64,000 nucleotides of DNA from Methylobacterium sp. NMS14P (lineage in GTDB: Bacteria; Pseudomonadota; Alphaproteobacteria; Rhizobiales; Beijerinckiaceae), in assembly GCF_028583545.1 (NCBI RefSeq), contig NZ_CP087106.1:5253001-5317000 (forward strand), given 5' to 3'. Numbering within the stretch: the first letter of the stretch is position 1; every line of letters starts with the position of its first letter. Shown one piece after another: positions 16,174 to 63,298 of the stretch. Position numbers and translations under genes: made by a program. The notes under the pieces are model-generated. The model did no database searches. It saw nothing but the letters and a program-made list of their open reading frames with translations, and was not told the origin of the DNA.

Positions 16174-17649
16174 ATGAGTTTCGAACCGATCGGCGCCATC
16201 ACGGTCGTGGTCGGCCTGTTCTGCCTGCTGTTCGGCACCCAATCGGTCGTCGTCGCGTTCGTGGTCTTCTGCAATCTCGGATCCGCCGCGGCACTCCTGC
16301 TGGGGGGCGCCAACGTTCAGCCGGCGCATCTTTTCCTCCTGTTCCTGATGATTGCGACACTGTTCTATCGCAACATCTCGACACTGTTCCTGAACGCGTT
16401 CCGCTTCCCGGAACCGGGCTTCTGGCTTCTCTGTCTGGCTCTCTACGGGGTGGCGAGCAGCTACGTCCTGCCGCGTCTCTTCGCGGGACAGACCTATATC
16501 GTACCGCTCGGGACGTCGTCGCACCTGATCACGAGCGACGGCGTCGTTCCCCTGGGGCCGGTCTCCAGCAACTTCACGCAGCCGATCTACCTTCTCGGCG
16601 ATCTCGTGTGTTTCAGCGTCATCGCGGCATTCGGTTCCACGAGGAACGGCGTCGAGACGCTCGCGAGAGCGCTCATCATCTACGCGTGCGCCAATATCTG
16701 CTTCGGCGTCATCGACGTGCTCACCGCGGCGACGGGCACTCAGGAGGCGCTGCAATTCATTCGCAATGCCCAGTACACGTTCCACGATGATGAGAGCGTC
16801 GGCACGATGCGGCGAATCATCGGCGCCTGGCCTGAGGCCTCGGCATTCGCCGGGATGACACTGGGAAGTTGCGGCTTCACCGGCATGCTCTGGCTCTGCG
16901 GGCGCAAGCCACTGGTGACGGGACCGCTCGCGCTGATCTCGCTGCTGTTCGTGATCCTGTCGACGTCCTCGACCGGCCTGGTCGGTGCCGCGGTGCTGAT
17001 CGCGCTCCTCTACACCATCGCGCTGATGCGGTGCAGCACGCACAGGCAGGACCGTTTCAGTGCCGGGCTCGTGATCGCGGGTCCGCTGGTCCTCTGCATC
17101 CTCGTCCTGCTGGCCCTCTCGGTCGGCGGTGTGGCCGAACGCGTCTACGATTACGTTGATACGCTTGTCTTGAGCAAAGGCGAGACCAGTTCGGGTGTTC
17201 AGCGCTCCGCCTGGAACGCCTACGCGTGGCGGAACTTCATCGACTCGAGCGGTCTGGGGGTCGGTCTTGGGACCAATCGCACGTCGAGCTTTCCCCTCGC
17301 GGTCCTGTCGAATGTCGGCATTCCCGGAACCGTGTTCTACGTGCTGTTCTTGGCTTCGGTGTTCGGATTCCGCCGTGGAGCGCCGCGCACCTACTGGAGC
17401 GATATCCGCTCCTCGGCCCGCGTCGCCTGCCTGTGCCTGCTCTCGGGCGGCATCATCGCGGGCCCGACGGTCGATCAGGGCTTGCTGTTCTATATCTTCG
17501 CCGCGACCGCATGCGCCTACCCCGAGCGGCGGCAGATCCAGCGCACCGCGGGTTCCGCCGCGCTGATCGAGCCGGGCGCCGCCGCGATACGGCCACGGCG
17601 CGCCGATCCATCCCCTCAGGCAGCCCGGAACGCGTCACTGGGCACGTAA
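16174..17649 (+). CDS. Wzy/O-antigen-ligase-like polysaccharide polymerase
   Basis: A predicted inner-membrane polymerase that joins repeat units in the periplasm. The 491-aa protein has about ten hydrophobic segments (VVVGLFCLLFGTQSVVVAFVVF at the start). The late periplasmic loop holds GVQRSAWNAYAWRNFIDSSGLGVGLGTNR, the arrangement seen in Wzy/WaaL proteins, where Arg and the NxxGxGxG-like turn face the glycan. ATG 16174 was chosen because the hydrophobic start follows at once; the open frame upstream overlaps the export gene and reads as non-coding. The C-terminal 50 residues are Arg/Pro-rich and cytoplasmic. It follows the flippase and the export protein, so all three likely serve one polymer. 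Confidence 0.82.
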   Translation: MSFEPIGAITVVVGLFCLLFGTQSVVVAFVVFCNLGSAAALLLGGANVQPAHLFLLFLMIATLFYRNISTLFLNAFRFPEPGFWLLCLALYGVASSYVLPRLFAGQTYIVPLGTSSHLITSDGVVPLGPVSSNFTQPIYLLGDLVCFSVIAAFGSTRNGVETLARALIIYACANICFGVIDVLTAATGTQEALQFIRNAQYTFHDDESVGTMRRIIGAWPEASAFAGMTLGSCGFTGMLWLCGRKPLVTGPLALISLLFVILSTSSTGLVGAAVLIALLYTIALMRCSTHRQDRFSAGLVIAGPLVLCILVLLALSVGGVAERVYDYVDTLVLSKGETSSGVQRSAWNAYAWRNFIDSSGLGVGLGTNRTSSFPLAVLSNVGIPGTVFYVLFLASVFGFRRGAPRTYWSDIRSSARVACLCLLSGGIIAGPTVDQGLLFYIFAATACAYPERRQIQRTAGSAALIEPGAAAIRPRRADPSPQAARNASLGT

Positions 17650-17821
17650 AATCGGGCGCCGGGCCGATAGAGCGGAAGCCTGTTCATCGCGCGCCTGGAA
17701 GTCGCGCGGCGCGCCGCGATGCTGTCGAGGTGCGGCGGTCCACCGGTGGAGTCTCGCGCGGCCGCCAGAACACGCCGTCAGCAGTCTTTCCGAGGCGTTT
17801 TGTGACGAAAATCGCTCTTGT

Positions 17822-17855
17822 ATCGAAACTGTAACACCTGTGTTCCGGTTTCGAT
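17822..17855. promoter_or_regulatory. Nested inverted repeat (34 bp)
   Basis: Outer arms atcgaaac (17822-17829) and gtttcgat (17848-17855) enclose inner arms aacac and gtgtt separated by two bases. Only the three-base spacers (tgt and ccg) break the symmetry. It is 170 bases beyond the polymerase stop and has no T run, so an operator or RNA structure is more likely than a terminator. Confidence 0.5.
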
Positions 17856-17989
17856 GTTGGATATTCGTGCGGCACACCGGCCCGATTTTATCGTTCGACG
17901 GGTTGACAGACTATATCGGTCACTTCGACGACGGGGTAGATCGGGTGACTCGACTGAAAATCCTGTCCCGATCCGCGCGCGATGGCGTA

Positions 17990-18018
17990 TTTACAAATCC
18001 GGATTTGTTTACGATAGT
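17990..18018 (+). promoter_or_regulatory. Putative promoter with a 16-bp palindrome in its spacer
   Basis: TTTACA (17990-17995) and GATAGT (18013-18018) are 17 bases apart, a fair sigma-70-type pair. A perfect palindrome ACAAATCC-GGATTTGT (17993-18008) overlaps the -35 box and spacer, the place a repressor would bind. It would drive the FAD oxidoreductase gene about 150 bases downstream. Confidence 0.35.
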
Positions 18019-18164
18019 AATGCCTGAGCCTCGTTCCGCGCCTGTAGTATCGATGCGCGAACGGTCGCGGCACGATCAATTGCCGAGGGTGAGGGCCGTT
18101 TCTCTCTCGGTCCATCACTGTGTTCCAACGTCATGCTTCATGGTTTGATGCGGTTGCCGACCCG

Positions 18165-19517
18165 ATGCAGATCATGACCGATCCCTCAGATCCCGGCGCG
18201 CCTCTCGACGCGGACGACGACGTCTTCGATGCGGTCGTCTTAGGGGCCGGGATCACCGGCCTCGTTTCGGCGGCCATACTTCACGATCTCGGCTGTCGAA
18301 GGATCGCCGTCATCGATGAGTTCGGTAATCTGGGCGGCAATCACATCGATCGGGCCATCAACGGCTACACGTTCGACATCGGAAGTCTCATCTTCCAGGA
18401 CGATTCGCCTCTGCTGGACTATTTTCCGGAGCTGCTCGAGCATTACGTCCCGATCATGCCGACCTGGGGAAAGCTGACGCCTCAGGCTTTCGTGACCTCT
18501 TACCCGCTGTCCATCAAGGACGACATCCTCCGGGCCGGTGCGTGGGGTATCGTCAGGATCGGACTGTCGGTCGTATTCTCGCGTCTGCTACGGCGCCGGA
18601 TCGGAAATGCGCGGGAGTTCGCGCGCTACTGGATCGGTGATTATTTGCTCCAGAGGTCCGGCCTCGAGAGCTACATGAAGCGTTTCTTCGGCGTTCCGGC
18701 CGACTGGGTTGATCTGGAGTTTGCCGAGAAGCGGATGCTCTGGATCAAGGAACACGCGCATCCGCGCGTCCTGCTGCGCTACGTCCGCCGACATCACGCG
18801 ACCGTGCCGACCAACAGGCAACTGGCGCGTCCCCGTGAGGGCTACAATGCCCTCTACGGAGTGGCCGCGCGGACCCTCCGCCAGCGTGGAACGGTCTTTC
18901 ACCTGGGTCAACAGATCGGATCGATCACGAAGCGGGGGACGAAATTCGAGGTCCTCACGGGTAAGACCCGCATCACCGCCAACCGGCTCATCTCGACGAT
19001 CCCCATCACCCGGGCCCTGGAGCTCTGCGGGATCCGGGAGGATCCTCATCTGGCGTCGGTGACGCTGATCAGCCTGTATTTCAGCTTCAGCGGAAATCGC
19101 GGCTTCGACTGCTCGATCCTCTACAATTTCGCGCATGACGGGGCATGGAAACGGCTGACAATGTATTCCGATTTCTACGGTCGCGTGGACGGACGCGAGT
19201 ATTTTGGAGTCGAGGTCATTGCCGCACATGCGGGCAACTGCGTGACCACCGCCGAGCAGGATTTTCGCGCCCATGTGGCCAAGAACGGGCTCTTCATCGG
19301 TGATCTGGTCTGCGAGGGCAGCCAAGTGGTGCCCTGTGCCTATCCGATCTACACGGAGCAGGCCCACGAGAGGGTGTCCCGCGCGCGCGCGCTCCTGCGC
19401 GACTTCGGGATCGAGTCGTTCGGCCGGCAGGGCGGCTTTGACTATCAGCCGACAGCCCGTGTCTCGACGCTCAACGCGGCGGCTCACCTGATGCCGACGG
19501 CGAACACCGAGACTTAG
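18165..19517 (+). CDS. FAD-dependent oxidoreductase (amine oxidase / UDP-galactopyranose mutase-like fold)
   Basis: A flavoprotein with a Rossmann FAD-binding start, V-V-L-G-A-G-I-T-G-L, followed by AVIDEFGNLGGNHIDRAINGYTFDIGSLIF. The 'GGNHID' and 'FDIGSLIF' patterns match FAD amine-oxidase-like enzymes, including the UDP-galactopyranose mutase and protoporphyrinogen-oxidase-like families in sugar loci. No membrane segment is visible. The start is uncertain: ATG 18165 and 18174, or GTG 18120, are all in frame and none has a strong ribosome site. Position at the end of the plus-strand EPS genes suggests action on a sugar or lipid intermediate. The substrate is unknown, and the upstream region has two strong palindromes. 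Confidence 0.75.
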   Translation: MQIMTDPSDPGAPLDADDDVFDAVVLGAGITGLVSAAILHDLGCRRIAVIDEFGNLGGNHIDRAINGYTFDIGSLIFQDDSPLLDYFPELLEHYVPIMPTWGKLTPQAFVTSYPLSIKDDILRAGAWGIVRIGLSVVFSRLLRRRIGNAREFARYWIGDYLLQRSGLESYMKRFFGVPADWVDLEFAEKRMLWIKEHAHPRVLLRYVRRHHATVPTNRQLARPREGYNALYGVAARTLRQRGTVFHLGQQIGSITKRGTKFEVLTGKTRITANRLISTIPITRALELCGIREDPHLASVTLISLYFSFSGNRGFDCSILYNFAHDGAWKRLTMYSDFYGRVDGREYFGVEVIAAHAGNCVTTAEQDFRAHVAKNGLFIGDLVCEGSQVVPCAYPIYTEQAHERVSRARALLRDFGIESFGRQGGFDYQPTARVSTLNAAAHLMPTANTET

Positions 19518-20975: not shown

Positions 20976-22289
20976 CGACCAGGCCTTGATCTCAAGATTA
21001 TCGCGACGGGCAGGCCATGTGCGCGGCAGGTGTCGGATGCGGTCAGCGGGGCGCGCCCATGTGCCGCCTCCGGACCTGACGGGTGACCAGCGGACGCTCC
21101 CGGCCCCTGACCGGATGTCCGATCAGCCGCTGTCGGGCAGCCGCTCCGTAGGCAATGGACCATGATGGCGATGTTCTCAGCTGGATCGCAAGCGGGCGCC
21201 GTCATTCGGACAAGGCGTGAGCCAAGCCTCGGGTGCTGCCGGAATTGACGAACTTCAATGGGTCTCACAGGGCTTCACGACGACCGCTGCCGGCCGGCGC
21301 TGCGCGCAGAGCGTGCCGACCTGAAAGACATGCTCGGGATCCACATCAGGCTTTGCCCTCCCACTGGCCGGCCGAATAGGCGCGAACCGCTCTACGTGCC
21401 GCCCCGCACGGCACTCCATTGCCTCTCAACGGATACGCCATGCGCTGCCCCAATCCGTACTGACAGGCATTGTGGCGGCTCCTGCATGTTGGATGCCGCT
21501 TAGCCATCCGCAGGATACTGAGTTCGTCCATCCGGGTCACGCCGAGACGCACGCCACCATAGGGATTACTCCCAGGACGCCGGAACGCGGCCCCGCACCC
21601 GCATCCTATTGCGGTGCGGCGACCGATGCAGGCAAGTCGATGCGCAACGCACTCTCGCTAACTGCGTCTAATGTCCGGTATTGGCGAAACCTCCCGGGAC
21701 GCTTTCGTCAAGTTGTCAGGGTTGTCGCAAATTCTGAATTGATTATGCAAGGCTATTCACCGCATCCCGGTAATCGCCGCCGACGAGGCGCCGTGCGGTG
21801 GCCCGCCGTGGGGCTGGAAGGCGGGCGTTGCCCCGGCTGCCCGCGGCTTAATCCTGGGGATTGCAGGGTTTTCCCCACGCGGTGATGCCCCCGTCCCGAA
21901 TATGTGGCGCGCTTATACTGAAAAGCTACAGCTTCGAGAGCGGATCAGCTCTCGCCCATTAAGGGCCGATCGGTGCGGCTTTACGCAGCCCGAGCGCGCG
22001 CACTGCACAATGGAGGGCGAGCATATGCCCAAAGTAGATGTCGCGAGACATTGCGCGCGGCGACGTATCGAGTTGGATTCGTTGCCGCCGCGTGTTGCGG
22101 AAGGCGGCGTGCCACTGCGCCTCCGCCTGCAAGATCCGGATCTGTTCTTGCGGCTTCCAGAAGGAATAGACTAGGATACACAGCGCGGCTAAGCTTGAAA
22201 TAAGCCCGATGATTTGATATCGGAGATTTAACAATTAATTAGCCGTTCCTGCCCCCGCCGGCCGTCTGCCGTCACGAGGAGCCGACACC
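20976..22289. other. 1.3-kb region with little coding evidence
   Basis: No convincing gene was found except a weak membrane ORF at 21959-22234. Other frames are short and lack domains. The composition shifts to lower GC near 21660-21760 and 22180-22240. It may be decayed DNA or the long leader of the ExoY gene. The final 20 bases hold the ExoY ribosome site and the left arm of an inverted repeat. Confidence 0.5.
21959..22234 (-). CDS. Possible small membrane protein
   Basis: A 91-aa frame that starts MLNLRYQIIGLISSLAALCILVYSFWK. This is a clear single membrane helix after a short basic start, then a charged, possibly helical part (PQEQIRILQAEAQW). The C-terminal half looks less protein-like. 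It lies divergent from the ExoY gene. No family recognised. It could be a small bitopic protein or a chance frame. Confidence 0.3.
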   Translation of the reverse strand: MLNLRYQIIGLISSLAALCILVYSFWKPQEQIRILQAEAQWHAAFRNTRRQRIQLDTSPRAMSRDIYFGHMLALHCAVRALGLRKAAPIGP

Positions 22290-22352
22290 ATGCTGCGCGA
22301 CGCTGGCCCACCGCTTCAGCCCGCCCTGCGTGCACCGCAGCATGGTGTCGGC
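22281..22352. promoter_or_regulatory. 17-bp perfect inverted repeat spanning the exoY start codon
   Basis: The left arm 22281-22297 (gccgacaccatgctgcg) is exactly complementary to the right arm 22336-22352, with a 38-base loop. The ExoY start codon ATG (22290-22292) lies within the left arm and the GAGGA ribosome site (22276-22280) abuts it. In RNA this stem would hide the start. In DNA the arms could support inversion: the flipped 72-bp segment keeps the ATG, the frame and contains no stop. Confidence 0.6.
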
Positions 22353-23048
22353 CTGGCGGATCAAGTTGGCGAGGTCGCAGAGGCTGTCGCAGTGGTCGTC
22401 CTGCCGACGGCGCCGTTCGTGGCGCACGGTCTGCGGCTGGGCTGGGCAGCCAAGCGCGGGCTCGATATCGCGGTGGCGGCTACGGCCTTGTTCCTGCTCC
22501 TGCCGCTGCTGATCCTGATCGCCGCCCTCGTCTATGCCGGCGATCGCAAGGCGCCGATCTTCCGCCACATGCGGGTGGGGCGGGACGGACGCCGCTTCGG
22601 CTGCCTGAAGTTCCGCTCCATGGTGACGGACGGCGACGCCGTGTTGGTGACGCATCTGGCCGCCAATCCTCAGGCCCGCGCCGAGTGGGCGGCCACCCAC
22701 AAGCTCAGCGACGACCCGCGCGTGACCGCGATCGGTTACGTGCTGCGTAAGACATCGCTGGACGAGCTGCCGCAGCTCTGGAATGTGCTGCGCGGTGAGA
22801 TGAGCTTGGTCGGTCCGCGCCCGATCGTGCCTGCCGAAGTCGCCCGCTACGGGCGGGCCTTCCCGACCTGTTTCGCCATGGCGCCGGGTGTGACCGGGCT
22901 GTGGCAGGTCTCGGGCCGCTCCGACACGACCTATGCCGAGCGCGTGGCCCTGGACCTGGACTACGCTACCCGTTGGACCCTGCACCGGGATCTCGTCATC
23001 ATGCTGCGCACCGTCCCCGCCGTTCTGGCTCAGCGCGGGAGTCGATAG
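22290..23048 (+). CDS. exoY: ExoY-type undecaprenyl-phosphate sugar phosphotransferase
   Basis: The priming enzyme: it transfers a sugar-1-phosphate from a nucleotide sugar to undecaprenyl phosphate, the first step of EPS synthesis. The 252-aa chain has a variable N-terminus (1-50), one membrane helix (about 56-80, [21 protein letters not shown]), then the bacterial sugar transferase domain. That domain has [48 protein letters not shown] and [15 protein letters not shown]. There is no extra N-terminal membrane domain, so it is the short ExoY/WecP type. Start: ATG 22290 after GAGGA. A close paralog is at 58143-58880 with the same 'gagccgac' leader. The start codon is inside an inverted repeat. 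Confidence 0.92.
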
Positions 23049-43534: not shown

Positions 43535-44376
43535 GCCCGCACCGGGCGCCGGCCCACGATCTCCTGTCCGAGCCGGCGGACGCCTTCAGCCTGTTCGACA
43601 CCGAGGAGGCGGTCCTCGGCCGGTCCGAGGTGATGCTGGCCCGCCTCGCCGAGGTCGGCGACGGGGTGCGGGAGCTCGCCGGCGCCTATCGGCGCAGCTA
43701 CCACGAGCAGCGCCGGCTGGTGCGGCTGAGCGACCGGATGCAGCTCGACCTGCACCGCGCCAACCAGCGGATGGCCGAGCAGCAGCGCGCCCTGCGCCAC
43801 CTCAACGACGCCCTCTCGGCGGAGATCGAGCACCGGGCGCGCCTCGAGGGCGAGCTCCGTCGCCTCGCCGACACCGACCACCTCACCGACGCCCTGTCGC
43901 GCCGCCGCTTCCTGCAGATCTGCGAGGAGGTCTGGGCCCGGACCCAGTCGGGCGACACGCCCTCCAGCGTGCTGATGCTCGACCTCGATCGCTTCAAGCT
44001 GATCAACGACCGCTACGGCCACAGCGCGGGCGACACGGTCCTCAAGGCCTTCGTCGAGACCTGCCGCGACAGCCTGCGCGCGGTCGACGTGATCGGCCGC
44101 ATGGGCGGCGAGGAATTCGCCATCCTCGTCACCGGCACCGTGCTGGCCGAGGCGCAGGCCATCGCCGAGGAGCTCCGCCGCGCGGTGGCGCAGCGACCGG
44201 TGCGCCTGGAGCACGGGCCGCTGCCGATCTCGGTGAGCATCGGTCTCGCGGCGTTCGGTCCGAGCGAGTCGATGCCGGCGACGCTCCGGCGGGCCGACGC
44301 GGCGCTCTACGCTGCCAAGCACGCCGGCCGCGACTGCGTGCGCTGCGCGACCGAGCCGGGCGGGTCCCCGACCTGA
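43531..44376 (+). CDS. siaD: SiaD-like GGDEF diguanylate cyclase
   Basis: A 281-aa cytosolic diguanylate cyclase that makes c-di-GMP. N-terminal helices (60-115, RLVRLSDRMQLDLHRANQRM and on) likely form a coiled coil for dimerising and binding SiaC. The GGDEF domain has DTDHLTDALSRRRF, the metal-site D-L-D-R-F-K-L-I-N-D, and the active-site G-G-E-E-F (192-196). The inhibitory site R183-A-V-D186 lies five residues before it, so product feedback is expected. The start is GTG 43531 (GTGA overlap with siaC). Its c-di-GMP could feed the EPS loci on either side. The start of the protein (1-30) is not a signal. Confidence 0.9.
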   Translation: MSPHRAPAHDLLSEPADAFSLFDTEEAVLGRSEVMLARLAEVGDGVRELAGAYRRSYHEQRRLVRLSDRMQLDLHRANQRMAEQQRALRHLNDALSAEIEHRARLEGELRRLADTDHLTDALSRRRFLQICEEVWARTQSGDTPSSVLMLDLDRFKLINDRYGHSAGDTVLKAFVETCRDSLRAVDVIGRMGGEEFAILVTGTVLAEAQAIAEELRRAVAQRPVRLEHGPLPISVSIGLAAFGPSESMPATLRRADAALYAAKHAGRDCVRCATEPGGSPT

Positions 44377-57778: not shown

Positions 57779-57931
57779 TCAGCGGCGCCGGGTGAGCAGG
57801 ACGACGAGGCCAACCGAAACGGCCGCCCCGGCCTGGGCGGCCAGCACCGCGAGCAGGAAACCCTTCGGTAGAACAACCGCGAAGCCGATCGCTCCTCCAA
57901 TCAGCGCAGCGAAGACCAGCACGACCAGCAA
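57779..57931 (-). CDS. Small membrane protein (50 aa)
   Basis: A 50-residue, two-helix membrane protein: LVVLVFAALIGGAIGFAVVLPKG, then FLLAVLAAQAGAAVSVGLVVLLTRRR. The TTG start at 57931 is chosen because GGAGG lies seven bases upstream; the frame is open further up but loses hydrophobicity. The closing TRRR puts the C-terminus inside. It lies between acyltransferase and ExoY genes. No family recognised. Confidence 0.55.
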   Translation of the reverse strand: MLVVLVFAALIGGAIGFAVVLPKGFLLAVLAAQAGAAVSVGLVVLLTRRR

Positions 57932-58142
57932 CGCCTTACCTCCATTGATGGATCGGCGGCCGTCTTGTTGCCGAACCTGTCGTGGGCCCAGTGTTGTCGC
58001 AAGGGTTCCGCCAGCGATCGACGCCCCTTCGGACCGGCCGAGAGCCGCCGAAGCCGGCTGCGGCGACGCTGGCCGAACCGGCCGGCTGCGCACGTCGCTC
58101 CGCAAGTTCCGACCCCGTCTCGCCCCGAGTCAAGGAGCCGAC

Positions 58143-58880
58143 ATGTTGCGCCCGGCTGGGACCCCGACGCCGATCGAGTCGTCGACGCCGCAGGATATGG
58201 TCGAGACGCTGAACGAGGCGTTGGTCAAGACATTGCCGGCCCCGCGGCAGGCCGGCCCCGGCCTCCGGGTGAGCTGGGCGATGAAGCGCGTCCTCGACGC
58301 GAGCATCGCGCTGACGGCGCTGTTCCTGCTGCTGCCCCTGCTGCTGTTCATCGCCCTGCTGATCTGGGGCAGCGACGGCCGGTCGCCGATCTTCCGCCAC
58401 AAGCGCCTCGGCCGGTACGGGCGCTCCTTCGGATGCCTGAAGTTCCGGTCCATGGTCGCGGACGGCGACGCGGTGCTGGCGCGGCATTTCGCCGAGAATC
58501 CCGAGGCCCGGGCCGAGTGGGAGGCGTCCTTCAAGCTTACCCACGATCCCCGCGTGACGGCGCTGGGCCAGGTCCTGCGCAAGACCTCCCTCGACGAGCT
58601 GCCGCAGCTCTGGAACGTGCTGCGCGGCGAGATGAGCCTCGTGGGACCGCGGCCGATCGTCCAGGCCGAGGTCGTCCGCTACGGCGCCGACTTCACCGCC
58701 TGCTTCTCGGTCCCGCCGGGACTGACCGGCCTGTGGCAGGTCTCCGGGCGCAGCGATACCGGCTACGCCGAGCGCGTCGCCCTGGATTGCGCCTATGCCA
58801 GCCAGTGGAGCCTCACCCGCGACCTCGCCATCCTGTTCAAGACGGTTCCGGCCGTGTTGTGCCAGCGCGGCAGCCGCTAG
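58143..58880 (+). CDS. exoY: Second ExoY-type sugar phosphotransferase
   Basis: A 245-aa priming enzyme for EPS, paralogous to the one at 22290. One helix (about 58-78, [23 protein letters not shown]), then the sugar transferase domain: [62 protein letters not shown] and [24 protein letters not shown]. The start ATG 58143 follows AAGGAG. The leader 'gagccgac' before the ATG is the same as in the first copy, but there is no long inverted repeat here. It likely starts the polymer made by the second cluster. Confidence 0.93.
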   Translation: MLRPAGTPTPIESSTPQDMVETLNEALVKTLPAPRQAGPGLRVSWAMKRVLDASIALTALFLLLPLLLFIALLIWGSDGRSPIFRHKRLGRYGRSFGCLKFRSMVADGDAVLARHFAENPEARAEWEASFKLTHDPRVTALGQVLRKTSLDELPQLWNVLRGEMSLVGPRPIVQAEVVRYGADFTACFSVPPGLTGLWQVSGRSDTGYAERVALDCAYASQWSLTRDLAILFKTVPAVLCQRGSR

Positions 58881-63202: not shown

Positions 63203-63298
63203 GGCTGCCACGGTTCGAGGGCTGGCCCGATCCTCCCGACGATCCGTTAACGATATCTTAATGCCCGCGCCGCGGGACGGGCCGCTCCGCGCGGGCCG

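Follow-up and report, generated by a model that had tools for sequence, protein, structure and literature searches.

The window, by which we mean the whole 64,000-nucleotide stretch of Methylobacterium sp. NMS14P DNA that was analyzed, carries on its forward strand a gene for an exoY-type sugar transferase of 252 amino acids (22290 to 23048). The PF02397 match covers residues 55 to 246 and is nearly full length (profile positions 1–178 of 179, E 1.4e-59). Its exopolysaccharide (EPS) neighbors lie at 3.8 to 17.6 kb, with matches to Wzz, a glycosyltransferase, and polysaccharide synthesis and export functions; a Wzy_C match among them scores below cut-off. At the beginning of exoY, on the same strand, sits a perfect inverted repeat. 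The left arm (22281–22297) holds the ATG, the right arm (22336–22352) falls in codons 16 to 21, and the 38-nucleotide loop between them (22298–22335) is coding. The arms are complementary at 17 of 17 positions, and exact copies of them occur in the strain's own genome at these two places only, 55 bp apart. The ribosome-binding site GAGGAG (22276–22281, forward strand) has its final base inside the stem. The original prediction had given the 17-bp arms with their coordinates, base-for-base match and 38-nucleotide loop, had put the ATG inside the left arm and had the ribosome site abutting it. All of this was reproduced from the sequence, the site in fact overlapping the first base of the arm.

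How credible is the start at 22290? No alternative start codon separates this ATG from the in-frame TAA at 22236, and downstream the first 60 codons offer just two in-frame starts, GTGs at residues 35 and 44. GAGGAG and ATG are both conserved across the three orthologues we compared, those of genomes G002, G050 and G038. Values of dN/dS are 0.14–0.33 for residues 1–50 and 0.04–0.12 for residues 51–252, and by this measure the N-terminal 50 residues of ExoY are under purifying selection. Because dN/dS is low in both parts, the ATG is credible and the gene seemingly functional. A true start further downstream was considered and rejected on two grounds, the constrained N-terminal codons and the conserved Shine–Dalgarno (SD) sequence.

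An in silico fold of 22250–22370, a check proposed with the original prediction, came out as a strong hairpin (−64.1 kcal/mol, z −3.56), with none of 200 shuffles equally good. Opening the region from −20 to +15 around the exoY start is predicted to cost 32.0 kcal/mol. This is the highest value among 27 exoY-family starts (median 15.5; the other 26, 9.7–20.4), the 27 being what remained of 31 copies once four had been dropped because our rule found in them no start preceded by a ribosome site. Within the strain's own genome the start ranks third among 177 putative starts (median 17.6), an uncurated set that came from a filter on ORF, composition and ribosome site and that includes the window start itself; with a narrower filter, which left 54 starts, it is the highest. 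A putative start at window position 43666 is also costly to open, at 32.3 kcal/mol. The cost at exoY depends on where the transcript ends, rising from 17.1 kcal/mol at 22335 to 33.7 at 22352 (about 17 to 34). Since it is 17.1 at 22335, a ribosome loading before the right arm emerges would escape the stem. The diverged exoY paralogue in the window (57792–58880, forward strand; about 65% identical, aligned from 58143) was said to lack the structure; it does indeed have no start hairpin, and its start costs 13.8 kcal/mol to open.

Searching 111 Methylobacterium genomes with the exoY 5′ region gave some match in 30 of them, with near-whole-query matches beyond the strain's own genome in G002, G050 and G038 only. 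The flanking genes are in matching order in G002 and G050, and partly so in G038. Our orthologue comparison is therefore one of four sequences, the window and these three, with a single strain of the window species. Arm conservation among relatives, which had been put forward as a check, did not hold up. Position for position with the window stem, and with G-U counted, G038 keeps 14 of the 17 pairs, G002 12 and G050 11. At the orthologous place there is no perfect repeat of at least 9 bp in G002 or G050, and a 10-bp part of one in G038. A search for the exact 15-bp core, allowing loops of 30–45, found it in one of the 111 genomes, the strain's own. G038 forms the hairpin nonetheless; G002 and G050 adopt other folds. 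Predicted opening costs for the orthologues are 18.6 (G038), 13.0 (G002) and 15.8 kcal/mol (G050). Over the four sequences 80.6% of cells are paired, and 233 of 500 shuffles score as well, so in these alignments the pairs covary no more than shuffled ones do. One pair, 22284–22349, has changed on both sides in G002, and two others are maintained through G-U. RNAalifold gave the four orthologues a consensus that is a bulged version of this hairpin (−26.4 from folding and +0.62 from the covariation term, which is a penalty).

The original prediction, that the stem would limit translation until something opens it, can thus be divided in two. The predicted occlusion stands, at 32.0 kcal/mol for the window against 13.0–18.6 for its orthologues. 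A conserved regulatory brake is not supported, with pairs kept at 14, 12 and 11 of 17 and covariation at the level of shuffles.

Would such a repeat be expected by chance? In 1.84 Mb of sequence from a dinucleotide model, perfect repeats with loops of up to 60 were never longer than 15 bp. A 459-kb sample of the real genome (the window and 20 chunks of the strain's own genome, one of them less its 5000 masked bases) contains seven perfect repeats of at least 17 bp with loops of up to 60, the exoY repeat included. With seven in 459 kb, long perfect repeats are not rare in this genome; only the position of this one is unusual. When synonymous codons were resampled with the present leader and protein, 5 of 3000 trials produced a repeat of at least 17 bp that covered the ATG. 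Allowing two mismatches, there are 11 further arm sites in the genome, against one for a reversed-pattern control. An Rfam search of 22000–22600 at E up to 1 returned no known RNA family. Two simple identities were rejected: the end of a mobile element, as the genome holds no further exact arm copy, and a terminator, as no run of T follows the stem on reading the sequence.

Among the four sequences, the arms of the window differ from those of all the others at two bases only, A to G at 22351 and G to C at 22352. Together they turn codon GAG into GGC, replacing E by G at residue 21, and complete the last two pairs of the stem. Across 31 exoY copies, residue 21 is E in 14, G in three (the window included) and a gap in nine. 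Two other adjacent doublets are at 22181–2 and 22226–7 on the window branch, where such changes are thus not rare, and we estimate the chance of a doublet fitting the other arm at about 1 in 9. With the orthologue bases placed at 22351–22352, the start still costs 30.0 kcal/mol to open, only about 2 kcal/mol less, so the strong hairpin may predate this genome and have persisted.

These changes suggest a history. It would be by accident that the last bases of the leader, together with the first codons (22283–22297), are complementary to codons 16–21 (22336–22350). By parsimony, a 15-bp repeat would already have been present in the ancestor from which the window, G002 and G050 descend, because its arm bases are common to the window and G038 or to the window and G002/G050. 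The G002 and G050 pair would later have lost it. In this genome, AG to GC at 22351–22352 would have lengthened the repeat to 17, with template switching from one arm to the other as a possible route. Template switching homogenizes repeat arms in yeast genes (PMC8604942), and the same is also described for RNA genes (PMC8794818). Our repeat resembles such quasi-palindromes in that it is an inverted repeat in coding sequence, where a two-base change within one codon extends the identity of the arms. It differs in being a single two-base event, hardly separable from ordinary substitutions and worth only 2 kcal/mol more in opening cost. Perfection of the repeat by template switching is thus weakly supported.

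On balance the repeat is probably a quasi-palindrome, incidental and specific to its lineage, in a working exoY; it may dampen expression and would not be an evolved switch. On the folding model, the mRNA hairpin would lower initiation once the right arm has been transcribed. ExoY output would then hinge on the first ribosomes to load, a passive form of dampening. The bulged hairpin in the RNAalifold consensus counts against this reading.

That consensus also speaks for a different and, in our judgment, unlikely explanation, that the hairpin works as a regulated brake on translation from this exoY allele, to be released by temperature, a small RNA, a helicase or a leading ribosome. Hairpins in mRNA that sequester the SD sequence or start codon are a known class, which includes translational operators and RNA thermometers. 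Here too the edge of the SD and the AUG lie within a long stem expected to prevent initiation, and a brake would fit the extreme rank of this start in both sets and the z score of its fold, as well as G038, which holds 14 of 17 pairs and forms the hairpin. Against it, the stem is disrupted in G002 and G050, and covariation and Rfam came out as described above. Unlike members of the class, the structure is poorly conserved and comes with no evidence of a trigger. Were the hairpin a brake, a few bases would set differences in ExoY dose between close Methylobacterium species, and the gene would offer a simple test of how intragenic inverted repeats alter expression.

What recurs at exoY genes lies upstream. 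The candidate CtrA box TTAACAATTAATTAG (22228–22242, forward strand) is TTAA-N7-TTAA with one mismatch, at its last base, 22242; the change is absent from the three orthologues. Over the 330 nucleotides upstream of residue 58 in 55 exoY copies (distinct sequences and not independent lineages, five of them, L072–L076, from outside Methylobacterium), the motif occurs with at most one mismatch in 32 and exactly in 10. With the spacing set to any other value between 2 and 14 inclusive, at most 15 and three of the 55 are reached, respectively. The rate of sites with at most one mismatch in the strain's own genome is about 0.007 per 330 nucleotides (10 in 459 kb). The exoY copy at 58143 is without the motif. 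An exact TTAA-N7-TTAA at 63247–63261 is the only other site in the window within one mismatch.

TTAA-N7-TTAA is given as a CtrA motif, enriched at envelope and cell-division genes, in a transcriptome study of a methanotroph (PMC12403871). In rhizobia, Ros/MucR proteins also bind AT-rich sites upstream of exoY (PMC9779718). The peak at a spacing of seven bases favors CtrA over Ros/MucR for our box, and the recurrent upstream signal looks like a site for this cell-cycle regulator. The likeness to CtrA promoters extends to motif, spacing preference, an envelope-polymer gene downstream and CtrA-family genes in the genome, where two loci score above the NF045991 cut-off. It stops at the mismatch in the window box. 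The second CtrA-family gene, at G000:C3:20170-20838 (L178), is on the third contig and over the curated cut-off. The recurrent control of exoY would then be transcriptional, through a candidate CtrA-type box that starts 62 nucleotides before the ATG. If the box is bound, the priming step of Methylobacterium exopolysaccharide would be tied to a cell-cycle regulator. We found no literature joining CtrA, TTAA and exoY in a search that left out most subscription journals; a search on CtrA, Methylobacterium and exopolysaccharide, judged by titles and the starts of abstracts, gave nothing on a link between exoY and CtrA. Other papers on exoY in Methylobacterium, or on CtrA in M. extorquens or the Rhizobiales, may contain a related statement.

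A closer exoY paralogue lies outside the window, 0.7 Mb away, at G000:C1:4553026-4553718. It is 94.6% identical to the window gene over 608 bp, with the match beginning at 22434, and the matching tract (window 22434–23041, L114:10031-10638) includes an identical run of 206 nucleotides. Its 5′ end is unrelated to that of the window exoY. The G002 and G050 orthologues are about 90% identical from codon 51 to the end, below this paralogue. That the paralogue is closer over this part than these two orthologues, with an unrelated 5′ end, suggests from sequence comparison that the exoY copies have exchanged sequence. An IS4/5-type transposase is encoded nearby, at L114:12138-12971.

This paralogue bears on another doubtful explanation, slightly less probable to us than a brake, in which the window copy is drifting to low expression, with its start occluded, its box one base down and a near-identical copy elsewhere. 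The mismatch at 22242, absent from the orthologues, and the occluded start are what such drift would leave, and the 94.6% match provides the other copy. On the other side, the catalytic region is strongly constrained, with dN/dS of 0.06–0.12 against the three orthologues. Moreover, since there is no EPS gene in the 10 of 20 other called ORFs around the paralogue that were scanned, it may not be able to replace the window gene.

The box and the hairpin could also act together. We hold it improbable, somewhat more so than drift, that this lineage alone has an allele-specific, two-layer control in which CtrA would time transcription and a self-closing hairpin would confine synthesis of the priming transferase to a pulse. 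Each mRNA would then be translated only by those few ribosomes that reach it ahead of transcription of the right arm.

DNA inversion was rejected. Invertible promoters and phase-variable inverted repeats are a known class, and here too inverted arms flank a short segment. The original prediction had held that flipping the 72 bp at 22281–22352 keeps the ATG and the frame and brings in no stop, which is correct, and that it changes residues 3–16; the change is indeed localized, although it affects 12 residues within 4–16. That the arms are inversion sites swapping these residues we nonetheless regard as very unlikely. The arms are unconserved, the loop points the same way in all three orthologues, and the flipped RNA would cost about as much to open as the unflipped (32.5 against 32.0 kcal/mol), so a flip would give two equally closed states. 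A Pfam scan of 24 of the 48 called genes in the window found no recombinase. Least likely of all, barely worth entertaining, is that a DNA-binding protein uses the arms as a dyad operator. Two exact copies in inverted orientation, spaced by 55 bp and with no further exact copy in the genome, would suit such a role; against it, the right arm lies in coding sequence and the arms are unconserved.

Relatives of exoY at E up to 1e-70 are present in 41 of the 111 genus genomes, and 20 of the 41 have two or more. A look for possible invertible EPS clusters flanked by inverted exoY copies, which covered G007, G031, G083 and M. pseudosasicola, showed a block with one exoY to be inverted in L146 (G031) relative to L137 (G007), with the breakpoint not placed at exoY. 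Some copies of exoY lie in repeated units of about 1.3 kb, as at L137:8416-9752 and 16868–18203, and also in L141, L142 and L143. In G007 the copies of the unit are 99.9% identical, and the unit extends past exoY to take in two small downstream ORFs (76 and 73 amino acids). In G083 they are 95–96% identical, and the unit is mainly upstream of exoY. A pair in G026 with 34% identity was an artefact of offset ends and was excluded from the copy comparisons. Eight Methylobacterium longum contigs (L080–L087) terminate within the 3′ part of exoY, and because all eight end there, they suggest that many near-identical exoY copies in M. longum have broken the assembly.
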